DNA of 64,000 nucleotides, from assembly GCF_014201145.1 (NCBI RefSeq), contig NZ_JACHDP010000001.1, positions 4,898,001 through 4,962,000 on the forward strand, read 5' to 3'. A program made the translations under genes and the position numbers. The DNA comes from Micromonospora parathelypteridis. Lineage in GTDB: Bacteria > Actinomycetota > Actinomycetes > Mycobacteriales > Micromonosporaceae. Of the stretch, positions 37,996-46,091 are shown piece after piece (the first letter of the stretch is position 1; every line of letters begins with the position of its first letter). The notes under the pieces were generated by a model. The model was not told where the DNA came from, did no database searches, and was given only the letters and a program-made list of their open reading frames with translations.

Positions 37996-38853
37996 TCAGC
38001 GGCGGACGGAGAACAGGCCCGGCGGTGGCGGATCGGAGCCGGTGGCGTCCGCGTCCCGGACCACCTGCGCGCCGCTGGCGAAGCGGTCCAACTCGTCGCC
38101 GGCCACCACCCGGCCGGGGAACCAGTCGCCGGCAGCGCGCCGGGTCAGCTCCGGCACCGGCGGCGTCACCCGCCCGGCGACCAGCACCAGATTCCCGTAC
38201 CGACGCCCACGCAACACCGCCGCGTCGCCGACCAGACAGGCCTGCGGCAACACCGACCGGACCGTGGCGACCTGCCCACGCGCGTGCCGCAGCGGCGGGC
38301 CGTCCGCCAGGTTCGCCAGATACCAGCCGGCGGGGCGGAGCACCCGCGCCACCTCGGCCGCGTACTCCACCGACGTGAGGTGCGCCGGAGTACGGGCACC
38401 GGCGAAGACGTCGGCGACCACCACGTCGTAACTGGCGTCCCGCGTGGAGGTCAACACCGCCCGCGCATCCTCCACCCGGACCCGCAGCCGGGTATCGGAC
38501 GGCCACGGCAACACCCGGCGAACCAGCTCCACCAGAGCGCCGTCCACCTCGGACACCCGCTGGGTGGAGCCGGGCCGGGTGGCCGACACGTACCGGGGCA
38601 GGGTCAGAGCGCCGCCGCCCAGATGCAGCACCCGCAGCGGCTCACCGGCCGGTGCGATCAGGTCCACGGCGGCGGCCAACCGCCGCACGTACTCGAATTC
38701 CAGATGCGTGGGGTCGGTCAGGTCGACGTGCGACTGCGGCGCGCCGTCCAGCAGCAACGTCCACGAGCCGGCCCGGTCCTGGTCCGGAACAAGCTCGGCC
38801 TGCCCGGTGTCCACCTGCTCGACCACCCGGTCAGCCGCCCGTTTACGTCCCAT
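37996..38853 (-). CDS. Spermidine synthase-like methyltransferase-fold protein
   Basis: 285 residues. Rossmann S-adenosyl/aminopropyl fold: SWTLLLDGAPQSHVDLTDPTHLEFEYVRRLAAAVDLI, LRVLHLGGGALTLPRYVSATRPGSTQRVSEVDGALVELVRRVL (binding loop and acidic residue), DARAVLTSTRDASYDVVVADVFAGARTPAHLTSVEYAAEVARVLRPAGWYLANL. Resembles the orphan spermidine-synthase family of actinomycetes; the canonical aminopropyl acceptor motif is not obvious, so polyamine synthesis is unproven. Last gene of the co-oriented herA-sbcD-sbcC-nurA run, 18 bases after nurA. Confidence 0.78.
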   Translation of the reverse strand: MGRKRAADRVVEQVDTGQAELVPDQDRAGSWTLLLDGAPQSHVDLTDPTHLEFEYVRRLAAAVDLIAPAGEPLRVLHLGGGALTLPRYVSATRPGSTQRVSEVDGALVELVRRVLPWPSDTRLRVRVEDARAVLTSTRDASYDVVVADVFAGARTPAHLTSVEYAAEVARVLRPAGWYLANLADGPPLRHARGQVATVRSVLPQACLVGDAAVLRGRRYGNLVLVAGRVTPPVPELTRRAAGDWFPGRVVAGDELDRFASGAQVVRDADATGSDPPPPGLFSVRR

Positions 38854-38871: not shown

Positions 38872-39831
38872 TCAACGGGCGGCGCGGGCCGCAGCGGTCA
38901 ACGCGCGGTGCAGCAGTCGGGAATCGCCGAGCAGGGCACGCAGTCGGCGTTCCAGCCCGGCGATCGGGATCAGATTCTGTGGCGCCCGCGGATCCTTGTA
39001 CGGGGTGGAGGCGAAGCGCGGCAGAGTGACCAGCGACAGGTCGGCCAGCTCGATCGCCGCCTCGACGGGCAGGTCGGCAGAGCACTCCACCCGGACGATG
39101 CCCGCCCACGGCGCGCCGACCGCCACCGGCAGCCGCAGATACCACGACCAGCCACCCCAGGCGGTGCCCAGCCGGAACACCGGCGAACGCTCACCCGACG
39201 CCATACCGGTCACCACCGCGGTCAGCCGGGCATCCAGGTACTGGCTGTGCTGGGTCTTGATATAGCCGAGCGTGCGCGGCAACTGCCGGCGACTACGCAA
39301 CGGCCCGTCCACCACCAGCAGGTCACCATCGACCCGGGCGGCGTCGGACACCGCCACCTCCAGCGCGGTCAGCGGACCCTGCACGGCGGCCGGCAGCTTC
39401 GCCAGCTCACCGGTGCCACCCACCCGGTGCACCGGGTAACGAATCGCACCGGCCACCACGTCCTGCGCCGACGGGCTCGCGGTGAACAGGCCCCGGCCAA
39501 CCCGGGTACCGGCCAACTGCGCCGCACCCCGCCCCAGGTCGCACCGGACCACCCCGGCCGCGTACGAGGCGGCCAGACCGGGGAACGACCCGCCGTCGGT
39601 CTCCGCCGTCCAGATGCTCGCGTCGATCCGGCGAACCCCGTCGACCAGCAGCACCACGTCGGGTGCCCGCACCCCGGGGCGTACCCCGATCGCCCGCCAG
39701 TCCACGGCGGGCAACTCCACGTCCGCCTCGACCTGCGCGCTGCTCGGCGTGGCCGGCCCGGCAGCGGACGCCTCGAACGACGCCCCGTACGCCGGATCCC
39801 ACGAGTCGACAAAGAACGCGGCGTCACTCAA
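38872..39831 (-). CDS. nurA: NurA-domain 5'-3' nuclease
   Basis: 319 residues from TTG 39831, with GAGAGG eight bases upstream supplied by the end of the adjacent repeat. NurA features: PDVVLLVDGVRRIDASIW (first Asp motif), DGDLLVVDGPLRSRRQLPRTLGYIKTQHSQYLD (second D-G-x-L motif and following Lys), and C-terminal WAGIVRVECSADLPVEAAIELADLSLVTLPRF...DPRAPQNLIPIAGLERRLRALLGD. In archaea NurA and HerA form a resection nuclease-translocase working with Mre11-Rad50; the same partners are upstream here (sbcC, sbcD, herA). Start codon is uncertain because the repeat is in frame upstream. Confidence 0.78.
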   Translation of the reverse strand: MSDAAFFVDSWDPAYGASFEASAAGPATPSSAQVEADVELPAVDWRAIGVRPGVRAPDVVLLVDGVRRIDASIWTAETDGGSFPGLAASYAAGVVRCDLGRGAAQLAGTRVGRGLFTASPSAQDVVAGAIRYPVHRVGGTGELAKLPAAVQGPLTALEVAVSDAARVDGDLLVVDGPLRSRRQLPRTLGYIKTQHSQYLDARLTAVVTGMASGERSPVFRLGTAWGGWSWYLRLPVAVGAPWAGIVRVECSADLPVEAAIELADLSLVTLPRFASTPYKDPRAPQNLIPIAGLERRLRALLGDSRLLHRALTAAARAAR

Positions 39832-39837
39832 CGCGTG

Positions 39838-39955
39838 GGCCTCTCGTTCGCGGCTGCGGGGCTCCGCTGCGCTGCACTCCTCGCGCTCACCGCGCTGGCC
39901 TCTCGTTCGCGGCTGCGAGGCTCCGCTGCGCTGCACTCCTCGCGCTCACCGGCCG
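39838..39955. repeat. Tandem duplicate of a 59-base repeat between sbcC and nurA
   Basis: Two copies (39838-39896 and 39897-39955); the first 55 bases match with one difference (G/A). They fill the gap between the sbcC stop (39946) and the nurA start (39831). On the minus strand each unit is one that, from recollection, is dispersed through Micromonospora and Salinispora genomes. The nurA-side copy ends with GAACGAGAGG, the nurA ribosome-binding site. Confidence 0.85.
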
Positions 39956-42420
39956 GTCCGTTCGACGCGGGCTGACCGGGCATCCTTACGGACCTCGAAG
40001 CGGACCGGGATCCGCTCGGCCAGCGCCGGCACGTGGGTGACCACGCCGACCATCCGGTCGCCCCGGGCGGCCAGGTTCTCCAACGTGGCGGCGACGGTGT
40101 CCAGGGTGGCCGCATCGAGCGTGCCGAAGCCCTCGTCCAGGACGATCGACTCCAGGCTCGCCGCCGTGGTCGACATCCCGGCCAACTGCTCGGAGAGCGC
40201 CAACGCCAACGCCAGCGACGCCTGGAACGTCTCACCCCCGGAGAGGGTGCGTACGCCCCGGCGCAGCCCCGCGTCGTGGTGGTCGACCACGACGAACTCG
40301 CCCTTGTCGTGCACCAGCTCGTACTGGCCGGAGGAGAGCTCCCGCAGGATCCCCGACGCGCCGTCGACCAGCAGGTCCAACGCCTCGGCCAGCAACCACC
40401 GCTCGAAGTTGTTGGCCCGCAGGTGCCCGGCCAGCGCGCGCGCCACCTGCGCCTCCCGCTCGTGCCCGGCCCGCTGCTCGCGCAACGTCCCGGCCTGCTC
40501 CCGACGCTCCCGCAGCCGCCGTCGGTCGGCGTCGGCCCGTTCCACCGCCACTGTCGCGGCGTGCACCGGGTCGTCGCCGACCGGCACGTCGGCGTCGGCG
40601 AGGAGGCCGGCGATCCGCCGCTGCACCACGTCGGCCACCGACTCGGCCTCGGCGACCGCGGCAGCTCGGCCGGCCCGGTCGGCGCGGCGGCGATCCGCCT
40701 CGCTCGTCGTCCAACCGGTCAGCACGGCCCACGCGGCGGCCACGTCGTCCCGATCCGTCGCGGGCGGGCCGAACCGGGCCAGCCCGTCACGGGAGGTGTC
40801 GAAGGCCCGCCACGACGCCCGCAGCCGCTCCTCGGCGGCGTCCACCCCGGCCCGGGTCTGGCGTGCGGTCTCGCGGCCGGCCCGGACCGCGGTCGCCGCC
40901 TCCTCCAGCGCGCGCCGCAACCGGGCGTGCTCGGCCAACTCCCGGCGCAGCACCGCCGGCTCGGCCGCACCGGCGAGCTGCCCGTCCAGCTCGGCCAGTC
41001 GGGCTTCCAACTGCTCCTGGCGGGCCCGCGCCTGCACCAGCAGCCGCTCCAGGTCACGTGCTGCCGCGTCCCGCTGCTGCACGGCCGTCTGCGCGGCCTT
41101 GGTCGCGGCCCGCGCCGCCTTGCCCGCCGCCGTCGCGGCCGCCACCGCCGAATCGGCCGGCACCGCCGGGACCTGCGCCACCGGCTGCTCACAGACCGGG
41201 CAGGCCGCGCCGGCATGCAGGTGCACCCGCAGGCTGACCGCCAGGTCGGTGGCCTTCGCCTCCTCGTGCGCCCGGAAGGCCGCCTCCAACTCGGCGTCGG
41301 CCCGCTCGGCCGCCGCACGGGCGGTGGTCAGCGCGGCCACCGCCGTAGCGTGTTCGTCGTTCGCCGCGCTCACCGCGGCACGGACCGTGTCGGCCTCGCC
41401 GGACAGCCGGTCCCGATCGTCGTACGCCCGCAGCAGCAGTCGCACCGCGCTCTCGTCGCCGGCACCGGCCAGCTCGCCGCGCAGCTTCTCCTCCCGCTCC
41501 TCGGCCAGCGACACCCCGTTCGCCGCGGCCTCGGCCTCGGCCCGCGCCGCCGTGACCGCCCGGGCCACCTCGGCCACCCCGCCCGGCGCACGCACCCCGG
41601 TCAACACGGTCAGCTCGTCGTCGAGGGCGGTCAGCGCCGCCGCCGCCTCCCGGGCGGTGGCTTTGGCCGACGCCAGCTCCGGCACCGCGGCGGTCACCGC
41701 GGCCGCCAGCTCGGCCATCTGGTCGACCCGGGCGTCGGCCTCGGCCAACGCCTCGTCGTCCACGCCGGTCAGCCCGGCGAGCAACTGGTCGACCGCGTCG
41801 AGTCGGGCGTCCGCCTGTGCGGCGCGCACCGTCGCCTTCTTCTGCACGTCCTCGTAGACGCCGAGGCCGAGCAGGTTGACCAGGATCTGCTGCCGGGTCG
41901 CCGGCTTGGCGTGCAGGAAATCGGCGAACTGCCCCTGCGGCAGCACCACACAGCTGGTGAACTGCTCGTACGGCAGCCCGACCGCCTCCAGCACCGCCTG
42001 CTCCATCTCGGCGGGAGTGCCGGCCACCACCTCGCCGAGGTCGTCCGGGCTCAACCCGGTGTCCAACTTGGTCACGTCGAAGCCGGCCGGCATCAGCTGC
42101 AACCCGGCGTTCGCGGTCTTGACGTTGCCCCGGCCGTCCCGGCGCACCACCCGGGTGGCCACATAGCGGGCCCCGCCGGACTCGAAGACCAACCGCACCC
42201 GGGCCTCGGTCGCCGACGGCGCGAGCGCGTTCGCCAACCCTCGGGCGCCACCCCAGCGGGGCACCATGCCGTAGAGGGCGAAGCAGATGGCGTCCAGCAC
42301 CGTCGACTTACCCGACCCGGTCGGACCGATCAGGGCGAAGAAGTCGGCGTCGGTGAAGTCGATGGTGGTGTCGTCCCGGAAGACCGTGAAACCGGCCATG
42401 TCCAACCGCATCGGACGCAT
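39946..42420 (-). CDS. sbcC: Exonuclease SbcC (Rad50 homologue)
   Basis: 824 residues, somewhat short for SbcC. Walker A FFALIGPTGSGKSTVLDAICFALYGMVPRW at residues 28-57. Long antiparallel coiled-coil arms flank the zinc hook HAGAACPVCEQPVAQ (CPVC about residues 405-408). The C-terminal half has QYELVHDKGEFVVVDHHDAGLRRGVRTLSGGETFQASLALALALSEQLAGM (ABC signature) and LESIVLDEGFGTLDAATLD (Walker B, D-loop). ATPase that gates the SbcD nuclease for DNA end and hairpin processing. Start codon overlaps the sbcD stop by one base (TGATG). Confidence 0.95.
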   Translation of the reverse strand: MRPMRLDMAGFTVFRDDTTIDFTDADFFALIGPTGSGKSTVLDAICFALYGMVPRWGGARGLANALAPSATEARVRLVFESGGARYVATRVVRRDGRGNVKTANAGLQLMPAGFDVTKLDTGLSPDDLGEVVAGTPAEMEQAVLEAVGLPYEQFTSCVVLPQGQFADFLHAKPATRQQILVNLLGLGVYEDVQKKATVRAAQADARLDAVDQLLAGLTGVDDEALAEADARVDQMAELAAAVTAAVPELASAKATAREAAAALTALDDELTVLTGVRAPGGVAEVARAVTAARAEAEAAANGVSLAEEREEKLRGELAGAGDESAVRLLLRAYDDRDRLSGEADTVRAAVSAANDEHATAVAALTTARAAAERADAELEAAFRAHEEAKATDLAVSLRVHLHAGAACPVCEQPVAQVPAVPADSAVAAATAAGKAARAATKAAQTAVQQRDAAARDLERLLVQARARQEQLEARLAELDGQLAGAAEPAVLRRELAEHARLRRALEEAATAVRAGRETARQTRAGVDAAEERLRASWRAFDTSRDGLARFGPPATDRDDVAAAWAVLTGWTTSEADRRRADRAGRAAAVAEAESVADVVQRRIAGLLADADVPVGDDPVHAATVAVERADADRRRLRERREQAGTLREQRAGHEREAQVARALAGHLRANNFERWLLAEALDLLVDGASGILRELSSGQYELVHDKGEFVVVDHHDAGLRRGVRTLSGGETFQASLALALALSEQLAGMSTTAASLESIVLDEGFGTLDAATLDTVAATLENLAARGDRMVGVVTHVPALAERIPVRFEVRKDARSARVERTGR

Positions 42421-43568
42421 CAGTGATCGACCTCCTCGAAGAGCTCGTCGAAGAGCTCCCGTACGCCCTCGTCGGCGTGACCCCGGCTGTCCAGGTAGTC
42501 GGCGAACAACTCCCGTGGCGAACGCCCGGAGCGTTGCGCGATGCGGGCACCGCTGCCCGGCGCGGCCAGCAGCTCCGGGTCGATCCGGATCTCCAGCGCC
42601 CGGGGGAGTAGCTCCTGCACCTCCTCGCGCAGGCCGGCGCGGGGTTGCTCCCGCACGAACACCCGCAGCCAGGCGTCCGGTGCCTCGATCTCGGCGAGCT
42701 GGGCCAGGGTGCCGCGCACCGTCCGCAGCGCGCTCGCCGCGGTCACCGGCACCTCACGCACCCGGGCGGCGGTGCTGGCGGTCACCTCCACCACCGTCAC
42801 CGAGGGGACATTCTCCTGCTCACCGAAGTCGACAGCGAGCGGGCTGCCGCTGTAGCGCACCGGGCAGGGCCCCTCGACCCGCTGCGCCCGGTGCAGATGG
42901 CCCAGCGCCACGTAATGCGCGGTGGCCGGAAAGACGGTGGCCGGGACGGCGTAGCCCAGCACCGTGTGCGCGTCCCGCTCGCCGCCGCCGGTGGCCGCGC
43001 CGGTCACCGTCAGGTGCGCGGTGACCAGGTGCACCCGGTCCGGTTCGCGGAAACCCTCGGTCAGTCGCTCCAGCACCCGGCCCAGGTGGTCGGCGTACGT
43101 CTGGTTGGTCTCCGCGGCGGTCAGCTCGTACATCTCCAAGGCGCGGATCGCGTACCGCTGGGAGAGGAACGGCAGGGCGGCCAACTGCCACCGCTCGCCG
43201 TCGGCGGTGACGCCGTCGATCACGTGCTCGTCCGGATCTTCGCGCACCCCGCCGCGCAGCGTGATGCCGGCGGCATCAGCCCAGGGGCGCAGCGCGTCCA
43301 GCGCGGGGCCGTTGTCGTGGTTGCCGCCGATCGCGACCACGTCCGCGCCGGTGCGGCGCAGCGCGGTCAACGCCCGGGTGACCAGGCGGGTCGCCTCCGA
43401 GGTCGGCGCGGCGGTGTCGTAGAGGTCGCCAGCGACGATCACCAGATCCGGCTGCTCGGCGCGGGCAATGTCGATCACCCCGGCCAGCACGGCCTTGTGC
43501 TCCTCGGCCCGGGACTGTCCCTTGAGCACCTTTCCCACGTGCCAGTCGGAGGTGTGCAGGATCTTCAT
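42420..43568 (-). CDS. sbcD: Exonuclease SbcD (Mre11 homologue)
   Basis: 382 residues. Metallophosphoesterase nuclease motifs in order: MKILHTSDWHVGKVLKG (Asp8, His10), DLVIVAGDLYDTAAPTSE, DVVAIGGNHDNGPALDAL, VHLVTAHLTVTG and YVALGHLHRAQRV. The capping domain follows (GTLAQLAEIEAPDAWLRVFVREQPRAGLREEVQELLPRALEIRIDPEL). Cleaves DNA ends and hairpins together with SbcC. Only 18 bases separate its start from the herA stop, so herA-sbcD-sbcC is one operon. Confidence 0.95.
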   Translation of the reverse strand: MKILHTSDWHVGKVLKGQSRAEEHKAVLAGVIDIARAEQPDLVIVAGDLYDTAAPTSEATRLVTRALTALRRTGADVVAIGGNHDNGPALDALRPWADAAGITLRGGVREDPDEHVIDGVTADGERWQLAALPFLSQRYAIRALEMYELTAAETNQTYADHLGRVLERLTEGFREPDRVHLVTAHLTVTGAATGGGERDAHTVLGYAVPATVFPATAHYVALGHLHRAQRVEGPCPVRYSGSPLAVDFGEQENVPSVTVVEVTASTAARVREVPVTAASALRTVRGTLAQLAEIEAPDAWLRVFVREQPRAGLREEVQELLPRALEIRIDPELLAAPGSGARIAQRSGRSPRELFADYLDSRGHADEGVRELFDELFEEVDH

Positions 43569-43586
43569 GGCTGTGCTGGCCCCTGC

Positions 43587-45338
43587 CTAGAACGGGATGT
43601 CGTCGTCGGTGCCGCCACCGGAGCCCACCACGGCGAAAGGGTCGGCGGACTGGGTGATCGAGCGCAGCGTCTCGGATGGTGCCCGGCCCGCCTCGGAGAC
43701 CCGGGTGGCCCAGGCCGGGAACGGGAACTCCAGGCAGAGCGGCACCGGGATGTCCGGCTGGTTGACGAACATGGTGCCCGGCTTGGCCAGCAGCGCCCGC
43801 TGTCGCTGCGCGGGCGGGAGGAAACCGTACTCCGGGCGGGAGGCCTCGGCCGGGTCGAGCCGGCCGACCACCCGGATCGCCGAGTTGGTGACGATGCGCC
43901 GTTCCACCTCGCTCGCCGTCTGCTGCGCGCCGATCAGGATCACCCCGAGCGAGCGACCCCGCTCGGCGATGTCCAGCAGGACCTCCTTGATCGGGGAGGA
44001 GCCCTCGCGGGGGGCGTACTTGTTGAGCTCGTCGAGGACGACGAAGAGCAGCGGCTTGGCGGTGCCGGACTTCTCCTTGCGCTCGAACTCGCTCTTGAGC
44101 GTCACGCCGACCACGAACCGTTGGGCGCGATCCGGAAGATTGTGCAGGTCGACCACGGTGACCTGCGCCGACTCGCTGGTGTTGATGGAATGCGGGCGGC
44201 GGGTGGCGAGGTCGCCGCGGATCAGCCGGGCGAGGTCCTTCTTGCTGCCGATCAACCGCCGGGCGAACGCGTTGACGGTGCCCAGACCGACCGCGCTGCC
44301 CGCCCAGTCGGAGCGGGTCTCGTCGTTGTTGAGCTGGTCGACGATGTGGTCGACCAGATCGCCGTAGGAGCCGAGCCGAACCCCGTCGATGCTCACCCCG
44401 CCGTCGGCGGGCTGGGCGTAGCGGGCCAGGTGCGCGGTCACCGAGTGGACCACCATCGTGTACTGCTGGCGCTCGTCGTCGGCGTCGGCGAAGACGTACG
44501 GCAGGAGCCGGTCGGCGCAGAACTCGCTCAGCGTCCAGTAGAACGAATCGACCCCGGTGAGCCGGCTGCTCACGTCCGGCGTGCCGGCCGCGTCACCGAC
44601 GCGGGGCGGGGCGTACACCCGCACGTCCGGGAAGGCGCCGGCGCTCAGACCCAGCTTCGCGTACGCCGCGCGGGTGGGCTCGTCGAGCCGGGTGTTGGGG
44701 TGGTCCAGGAAGAGCAGGTCCTCACCCTTGACGTTGAAGATCAGCGCCTTGGCGTTCACCGCGTCGCCGCCCAGCACCCCGGAGCGGAAGACCGAGTAGA
44801 GCAGGAAGGTGGCGAAGCTGGTCTTGGTGGCGACCCCGGAGATGCCGGAGATGGAGACGTGCGCGCCCCGGCTGCCGTCGAGGAAGTCGGCGTTGAGGTA
44901 GACCGGGACCCCGTCGCGACCCATCCCCATCGGGATGCGCCGCTCCATCCGGTCGAAGTGCAGCGCACGCGCCCGGGCGTCGCCCTCGGCCCGGTGCACC
45001 ACCGCGCCCGGGGTCGGCGGCACGTAGAGCTCCGGATCGACCCGTGTGGTGGTGACCTCGGCCGCCTCCTGCACCATCGCGGGAAGCGTGCCGTCGGCGA
45101 TGGCGAACACGTCGGAGTCGAACTGGGCGCCCTCGTGCCGAGCGCGGACCTGGGTGACGACGCCGGCGATCGTCACCGGCTCCCGGTTGGGCAGCTCCCG
45201 CCGGGTGACCACGACGTCGTCGAGCTGGAGGTAGCTGCCGGGTGCCACGGCCGTCCAGAACTGCAACGGAGTGGCGTCGGCGGTGCCCAGCACCCGCCCG
45301 ACCGCCTCGCCCGGGCTGTCGAGGTCGGCGTCGGTCAT
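43587..45338 (-). CDS. herA: HerA-type hexameric ATPase (DUF87 DNA translocase)
   Basis: 583 residues from ATG 45338. N-terminal HAS-barrel-like part (VGRVLGTADATPLQFWTAVAPGSYLQLDDVVVTRRE, TIAGVVTQVRARHEG), then the RecA-type core. The P-loop is HVSISGISGVATKTSFATFLL (about residues 160-180), where Thr replaces the Gly normally before Lys. Walker B is LLFVVLDELNKYAP, followed by LLDIAERGRSLGVILIGAQQTASEVERRIVTNSAIRVVGRLD (Arg finger and Q motif region). Archaeal HerA is the DNA translocase of the NurA nuclease; here it heads the operon with sbcD, sbcC and nurA. Confidence 0.88.
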   Translation of the reverse strand: MTDADLDSPGEAVGRVLGTADATPLQFWTAVAPGSYLQLDDVVVTRRELPNREPVTIAGVVTQVRARHEGAQFDSDVFAIADGTLPAMVQEAAEVTTTRVDPELYVPPTPGAVVHRAEGDARARALHFDRMERRIPMGMGRDGVPVYLNADFLDGSRGAHVSISGISGVATKTSFATFLLYSVFRSGVLGGDAVNAKALIFNVKGEDLLFLDHPNTRLDEPTRAAYAKLGLSAGAFPDVRVYAPPRVGDAAGTPDVSSRLTGVDSFYWTLSEFCADRLLPYVFADADDERQQYTMVVHSVTAHLARYAQPADGGVSIDGVRLGSYGDLVDHIVDQLNNDETRSDWAGSAVGLGTVNAFARRLIGSKKDLARLIRGDLATRRPHSINTSESAQVTVVDLHNLPDRAQRFVVGVTLKSEFERKEKSGTAKPLLFVVLDELNKYAPREGSSPIKEVLLDIAERGRSLGVILIGAQQTASEVERRIVTNSAIRVVGRLDPAEASRPEYGFLPPAQRQRALLAKPGTMFVNQPDIPVPLCLEFPFPAWATRVSEAGRAPSETLRSITQSADPFAVVGSGGGTDDDIPF

Positions 45339-45572: not shown

Positions 45573-46091
45573 ATGAATGACGACTTCGGCGCCTTCGTCG
45601 CGACGAGCGGCCCGCGACTGCTCCGCTTCGCCGTACTGATCACCGGGCAGCGGGCGGACGCCGAGGACCTGCTGCAGGAGGTGCTGGAGCAGGCGTACCC
45701 ACGCTGGTCTGCGGTCCGGCAGCGGCAGCCGGAGGCCTACCTGCGTCGCGCGATGACCAATCGGCTCGTCAGCCGGTGGCGCTCACCGTGGAACCGACGT
45801 CGGGTCGCCGGCCTTCCGGACGTGCTGCCGCAGCAGGATGAGATGACCCGGGTCGACGACCGCGAGTTGCTGCTGGCGGCACTGCGGGACCTTCCGCCGC
45901 GGATGCGGGCGGTGGTGGTGGTCCGGTACTGGCTTGGTTTCTCCGAGGCGGAGGCAGCTGCCGAACTGGAATGTTCCGTGGGGTCGGTGAAGAGCCAGGC
46001 CTCCCGTGGTCTGCACCGCCTGCGGGCCCGGCTGGAGGCTGCCGGTGTTTACCCACTCGACCTCGACCTTGCGGAGGAGAATCATGCGTGA
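45573..46091 (+). CDS. SigE-family ECF sigma factor
   Basis: 172 residues from ATG 45573 with GGAG six bases upstream. Region 2: FVATSGPRLLRFAVLITGQRADAEDLLQEVLEQAYPRWSAVRQRQPEAYLRRAMTNRLVSRWR; region 4: ELLLAALRDLPPRMRAVVVVRYWLGFSEAEAAAELECSVGSVKSQASRGLHRLRARLE. This is the SigE70-type subgroup very common in Micromonosporaceae. Overlaps the next gene by eight bases. Divergent from herA. Confidence 0.93.
   Translation: MNDDFGAFVATSGPRLLRFAVLITGQRADAEDLLQEVLEQAYPRWSAVRQRQPEAYLRRAMTNRLVSRWRSPWNRRRVAGLPDVLPQQDEMTRVDDRELLLAALRDLPPRMRAVVVVRYWLGFSEAEAAAELECSVGSVKSQASRGLHRLRARLEAAGVYPLDLDLAEENHA

Follow-up and report, generated by a model that had tools for sequence, protein, structure and literature searches.

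In Sulfolobus, herA, mre11, rad50 and nurA are carried in a single operon (PMC2288612, PMC4351679). This set for the trimming of DNA ends is known chiefly from thermophilic archaea. All four genes of the S. islandicus operon are essential, and both the ATPase activity of HerA and the nuclease activity of NurA are required (PMC4351679). Bacterial NurA–HerA has been reported from a few bacteria without RecBCD (PMC9960219), and has been described as a likely archaeal acquisition by horizontal transfer with a disputed role in resection (PMC12977600). For Deinococcus, the tie of HerA–NurA to SbcCD was presented as a question still open (PMC4663267), and for Oceanithermus profundus the hepA (herA) locus was explained as an acquisition after which SbcCD was recruited, within a single species (PMC5448004). 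Here, we describe a herA–sbcD–sbcC–nurA locus in a 64,000-nucleotide (nt) stretch of DNA (the window; positions 4898001–4962000 of contig NZ_JACHDP010000001.1) from the 7.0-Mb, single-contig genome of the soil actinomycete Micromonospora parathelypteridis. The families of the four proteins, their intact catalytic residues, the conserved gene neighbourhood, the co-occurrence of HerA with NurA and the coexistence with an AdnAB-type pair are established below. With a probability of about 0.68, we interpret the locus as a bacterial HerA–NurA translocase–nuclease that is encoded in one operon with SbcCD and would process broken or otherwise open DNA ends.

The herA–sbcD–sbcC–nurA locus

The open reading frames (ORFs) of the window place herA, sbcD, sbcC and nurA in this order on the minus strand, in one putative operon. 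The features are as follows (aa, amino acids):

43587–45338, minus strand: herA, translocase ATPase with a HAS barrel and a RecA-like domain, 583 aa (P0002), assigned by profile and fold of D. radiodurans HerA (drHerA)
42420–43568, minus strand: sbcD, Mre11-type phosphoesterase nuclease, 382 aa (P0004), assigned by TIGR00619 and PF00149
39946–42420, minus strand: sbcC, Rad50-type ATPase with a CPVC zinc-hook motif, 824 aa (P0003), assigned by PF13476 and PF13558
39827–39944, minus strand: dispersed repeat of 59 nt, present twice in tandem at the sbcC–nurA junction
38872–39831, minus strand: nurA, RNase H-like nuclease with a TTG start, 319 aa (P0001)

The genes herA and sbcD are separated by 18 bases, sbcD and sbcC overlap by one base, and 114 bases lie between sbcC and nurA. 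An earlier reading of this DNA from its letters (the sequence-only reading) had given these coordinates, order, strand and spacings, all of which were borne out when the window ORFs were re-examined, and the identities that it proposed for the four genes are supported by profile, fold and residue evidence.

Identity of the four proteins

P0001 contains both motifs from which it had been named NurA, VDG at residues 63–65 and VDGPL at residues 174–178. No Pfam, NCBIfam or PADLOC profile matched the protein at E ≤ 0.1, and the Pfam NurA profile (PF09376) found no match anywhere in the genome, P0001 included. The profile search that had been proposed as a check thus gave nothing for P0001 alone and succeeded for part of its family: 23 of 36 homologues matched PF09376 at E ≤ 1 (best, 2.5e-6). 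A profile of the P0001 family retrieved solved NurA structures, and P0001 shows the RNase H-like NurA fold, with approximately 25% identity to D. radiodurans NurA (drNurA) in the structural alignment. Because the homologues and the family profile do reach NurA, we regard the Pfam miss as a limit of sensitivity. The silence of the profiles could also mean that P0001 is a different RNase H-fold protein, loosely paired with a HerA-like ATPase. The homologue matches, the family profile and the structural comparison rule out that argument from Pfam silence and, together with the conserved catalytic residues, leave this explanation with a next to negligible probability.

The residues were compared in two sets of homologues, namely 80 named ones, which are the best 80 of 562 matches and are close kin, and deep ones from across the phylum. 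D64, E158, D175, K192 and R282 were present in all 40 aligned deep NurA homologues, including those of two very divergent loci (L211 and L212). Among the 80 named homologues, none of the five residues was found in fewer than 79. D64 and D175, the aspartates whose conservation had been put forward as decisive, were found in 79/80 (one gap) and 80/80 of the named proteins, respectively. In the family-profile alignment, D64, K192 and R282 correspond to drNurA D53, K201 and R309, and the substitutions D53A, K201A and R309A each abolish nuclease activity (PMC9960219). Judging from their equal spacing of 17 residues, E158 and D175 probably correspond to E116 and D133, which are critical in S. islandicus NurA (PMC4351679). 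The 15 best named matches, all from Micromonospora, are 96–99% identical to P0001. This evidence supports P0001 as a bacterial (Deinococcus/Thermotoga-type) NurA and a predicted nuclease.

The P0002 family profile matched drHerA (7f6d_B) with an E value of 9.1e-195. An AlphaFold2 (AF2) model of P0002, with a predicted local distance difference test (pLDDT) score of 87.4, displayed the HAS barrel and RecA-like ATPase of the HerA fold, and its best Foldseek match was drHerA (7wrw; E 2.8e-66, template modelling (TM) score 0.85, 49% identity). The suggested search with HerA/DUF87 profiles gave almost nothing: HAS-barrel matched 3/32 and DUF87 1/32 family members at E ≤ 1, and neither matched P0002. 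The key residues of drHerA (K175/T176, D220, D487/E488, R495 and R552; PMC9960219) align with K172/T173, D207, D436/E437, R444 and R501 of P0002, so that Walker A, Walker B, the ASCE acid and the pore arginines are all in place. Walker A K172, D207 and Walker B D436/E437 were conserved in 36/36 deep HerA rows, T173 in 35/36, R444 in 34/36 and R501 in 32/36. P0002 is therefore supported as a predicted bacterial HerA translocase of the Deinococcus/Thermotoga type.

P0004 scored 180.3 bits with TIGR00619 (cut-off, 77.65) and matched PF00149 with an E value of 9.8e-13. P0003 matched PF13476 at its N-terminal end (3e-18) and SbcC_Walker_B (PF13558) at its C-terminal end (1.3e-10), both over the cut-off, with the CPVC zinc-hook motif in mid-protein; it thus has the split ATPase and zinc hook of this family. 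Its TIGR00618 score of 251.2 bits is below the curated cut-off of 478.5, and P0003 was therefore classified as a shorter, divergent SbcC/Rad50-type protein outside that curated subfamily. P0003 and P0004 each had a single match in the genome, for P0003 at E ≤ 1e-5.

Conservation and linkage of the four genes

The four-gene set is core-like and conserved in the family, and patchy across the phylum. NurA was detected in 118 of 121 family-level genomes (genome counts include the window's own genome) and in 52/249 genomes of the order, 42 of these 52 being from the same family and one match (G344, E 4e-4) perhaps due to chance. At the phylum level, 45 of 198 sampled genomes, many of them incomplete, carried NurA, and HerA (E ≤ 1e-30) was found in 17/296 genomes of the class. 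The co-occurrence of the two was close to complete: HerA (E < 1e-50) was present in 45/45 NurA genomes of the phylum sample versus 1/153 of the others, and in that one HerA-positive, NurA-negative genome (G070) a contig ends inside sbcD.

The order herA–sbcD–sbcC–nurA was kept in 69 of the 80 named loci; in the other 11 a contig end is reached, and the one to three genes that remain are in the same order. These data rule out a linkage peculiar to this strain and show the co-occurrence across Micromonosporaceae that the sequence-only reading had proposed to check. Linkage also extended to the deep loci, 40 of which were fetched out of the 44 other NurA genomes; for G007, G052, G073 and G127, it was read from match coordinates only. 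All four genes lay on one strand in 34/40 deep loci, in the order herA–sbcD–sbcC–nurA in nine and nurA–herA–sbcD–sbcC in 25, and in some deep loci several kilobases separate herA from sbcD. Among the deep loci without the full set, three (L037, L061 and L063) end at contig ends, two (L041 and L045) have herA on the nurA contig at a distance of approximately 14–18 kb, and in one (L040) herA and sbcD lie on a different contig from nurA. In one further locus (L036, genome G114), herA was matched in several pieces, some with internal TGA stops, and is perhaps a broken or mis-assembled copy.

Divergent nurA–herA–sbcD–sbcC sets were found at three loci (L211, L212 and L213), where NurA was seen only by weak matches of 38–47 bits. 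Since L212 and L213 come from genomes scored NurA-negative, the NurA counts are lower bounds. L211 is a second set in genome G146, which carries a normal set (L046) as well; the neighbouring genes of the divergent set overlap by 4–19 bases.

The pairwise distances of the four proteins were correlated (r 0.87–0.92 over 32–34 loci), a level reached in 0 of 500 permutations. A midpoint-rooted tree of 57 actinobacterial SbcD proteins (41 linked and 16 stand-alone), in which L211–L213 carry a long-branch warning, required three label changes versus a shuffled mean of 14.2. The stand-alone copies, from 15 genomes, were chosen among the matches and do not comprise all of them, and most were so classed from 6–7 kb of sequence; 14 of the 16 fell in one starred clade (100/98). 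On these sequences, HerA–NurA-linked SbcD is mostly separate from the stand-alone copies. Genome G183 has one SbcD of each kind, a HerA–NurA-type protein with 48% identity to P0004 and a second one, with 34%, in the stand-alone clade. Two SbcD lineages but no HerA match were observed in G182 (L202 and L203), and G039 (L204) has HerA–NurA-type SbcCD with no match to herA or nurA; both cases are possible losses of the HerA–NurA partner.

A tentative history, which we consider possible and somewhat doubtful, is that the four-gene set represents a resectosome of ancient bacterial origin, passed on mostly by vertical descent, and no recent archaeal gift to Deinococcus–Thermus. The linked SbcCD would have co-evolved with HerA–NurA as one machine, Micromonosporaceae would retain it as their sole SbcCD beside AdnAB, and the SbcCD of other sampled actinomycetes would be a separate lineage that stands alone.

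Coexistence with an AdnAB-type pair

The genome encodes two adjacent UvrD–PDDEXK proteins of 1205 and 1134 aa. They matched chains A and B of 7sjr, 6ppj, 6ppr and 6ppu, with E values as low as 6.5e-175 and 3.3e-249; the structure listing labels these chains as DNA or UvrD/REP helicases, and we take them to be mycobacterial AdnAB. The AdnAB-type pair expected in the same genome, AdnAB being the customary machine for this task in actinomycetes, is thus present. In the phylum sample, an AdnB-type protein (E < 1e-50) was found in 31/45 genomes with NurA versus 28/153 without (G157 has a fragment besides), a positive association in raw counts that are uncorrected for phylogeny. Because an AdnB-type protein is found in 31 of the 45 genomes with NurA, HerA–NurA accompanies AdnAB, and the idea that it substitutes for AdnAB was rejected. 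To our knowledge, Sulfolobus has no AdnAB.

Proposed function and alternatives

Opening of blocked or hairpin DNA ends is an activity of SbcCD. The gene neighbourhood and archaeal data suggest that SbcCD may first open such ends and pass them to HerA–NurA. By analogy with the complex described from Deinococcus, HerA as a hexamer would then thread duplex DNA into a NurA dimer, and NurA would cut the 5′ strand while HerA pumps. The product would be 3′ tails for RecA, made by a second route beside AdnAB. In this way, HerA–NurA would resect ends in parallel to AdnAB. Published data on relatives are mixed. In favour of this reading, the four genes are essential in S. islandicus (PMC4351679), Deinococcus without HerA–NurA reportedly shows reduced intermolecular recombination (PMC12977600), and a Thermus HepA (HerA) mutant was reportedly ultraviolet (UV)-sensitive under one condition (PMC5448004).

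Several points weigh against resection. Deletion of nurA–herA raised the resistance of D. radiodurans to UV and mitomycin C approximately 10-fold (PMC9960219), and for the Thermococcus kodakarensis complex a direct part in end resection was considered unlikely and an antiviral role possible (PMC12977600). Given the AdnAB-type pair, there may be no need for another machine that resects ends. Only D78 of the acidic triad by which drHerA binds NurA (D78/E80/D81) is kept (D76 in P0002, 36/36 deep rows), the positions of E80 and D81 being occupied in the alignments by F78 and A79; this triad is reported to align poorly outside Deinococcus (PMC9960219). The distance correlations may reflect, in part or wholly, a shared species tree, and a physical partnership of SbcCD with HerA–NurA is putative here. 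Finally, PADLOC reported matches to MADS, a defence system, for three proteins of the locus, namely P0002 (mad8), P0003 (mad3) and the next protein downstream of nurA (mad2), with matches to these three models only.

The raised resistance of the Deinococcus deletion strain and the presence of an AdnAB-type pair that already provides resection would both suit a nuclease that degrades ends and limits recombination, or a pump for chromosomal or transfer DNA, without making recombinogenic tails. However, the conserved NurA catalytic site and the neighbouring SbcCD, the sole one found in the genome, suggest end processing, and we consider this alternative improbable.

The PADLOC matches bear on another alternative, in which HerA–NurA and SbcCD would shred incoming linear DNA in the manner of Sir2–HerA, HerA–DUF4297 and TdpAB, with which the locus has folds in common. 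TdpAB has an antiphage role. Mobile defence genes usually lack a near-universal distribution with fixed synteny, whereas NurA is near-universal in the family and the gene order is fixed in the named loci. The partners here are nurA, sbcC and sbcD, no Sir2 or DUF4297 domain was found in 10 chosen flanking ORFs, and the one other PADLOC match among these was a TAP-like hydrolase candidate (C3a206). The three MADS matches can be read as generic folds (an AAA ATPase, an SMC-like ATPase and a Rossmann-type enzyme), the mad2-matching protein being a spermidine synthase by Pfam, and P0002 is far nearer to drHerA (2.8e-66) than to the defence HerAs. Defence thus appears unlikely, though it deserves consideration.

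Resection is in our view the best inference, contested for the relatives, with defence as a weaker rival. The conservation of HerA–NurA–SbcCD in mesophilic, culturable actinomycetes that have AdnAB provides a testing ground for whether HerA–NurA resects ends, serves as a backup or destroys DNA, and allows one to ask whether HerA–NurA works with Mre11–Rad50.

Surroundings of the locus

The duplicated repeat reported between sbcC and nurA is present as two 59-nt copies (39827–39885 and 39886–39944) that are 93% alike. A 24-base core of the repeat occurs at four further genome sites (≤1 mismatch), and an exact 19-base core lies immediately 5′ of nurA, in one or two copies, in 9/80 named relatives. 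Because the core is scattered in the genome and precedes nurA in these few relatives only, the repeat, which varies among relatives, looks incidental and outside the system.

Just upstream of herA, a divergent gene for an extracytoplasmic function (ECF) sigma factor occupies 45573–46091 on the plus strand, and the operon promoter is probably in the gap between the two. A sigma-70 scan found 0 promoters versus 0.1 expected, which says little since its consensus does not cover actinomycete promoters; the same scan found five terminator-like sites versus 1.5 expected, all inside or overlapping genes. Downstream, the spermidine synthase-like gene (37996–38853, minus strand; mad2 similarity 1.2e-8) begins 18 bases past nurA and is possibly co-transcribed with it. 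As a fifth member of the set this gene was rejected, being found in 54/80 named loci and not always adjoining nurA, and ORF clustering around 40 loci with a codon-position GC filter yielded no family in more than six. An ATP-dependent DNA ligase gene (PF01068, PF04679; 32510–33625, minus strand), possibly encoding an end-joining ligase, lies approximately 5 kb downstream of nurA.

Comparison with known systems

Bacterial HerA–NurA and the HerA–SbcD–SbcC arrangement of Oceanithermus (PMC5448004) were already known. Within the open-licence literature, searches for the four-gene operon in Actinomycetota found no account of it. The treatment of the FtsK–HerA superfamily by Iyer et al. in 2004 may mention it.

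The archaeal operon shares with the Micromonospora locus the same four functions. HerA and NurA are approximately 12–14% identical to their archaeal counterparts in structural alignments, versus 49% and approximately 25%, respectively, to those of Deinococcus. The label “archaeal-style” of the sequence-only reading therefore fits the gene set, but not the nearest kin. The nearest known systems include Thermotoga maritima TM1739 (PDB 1ZUP) and D. radiodurans HerA–NurA (PDB 7F6D, 7WRW, 7WRX; PMC9960219). The latter belongs to the same two families with nearly full-length agreement in fold, and its HerA shares the Walker A form GISGVATKTS and the catalytic residues with P0002; in contrast to it, the Micromonospora set is encoded with SbcCD in a genome that has an AdnAB-type pair. 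Sir2–HerA, HerA–DUF4297 and TdpAB likewise combine a HerA-fold ATPase with a nuclease. In O. profundus, sbcD–sbcC lies downstream of hepA (PMC5448004), as in the 25 of 34 complete deep actinobacterial loci with the order nurA–herA–sbcD–sbcC, whereas the actinobacterial set is widespread in its phylum and has the order herA–sbcD–sbcC–nurA in Micromonosporaceae. We rate the set of Actinomycetota as a known kind of system in a new and widespread setting.

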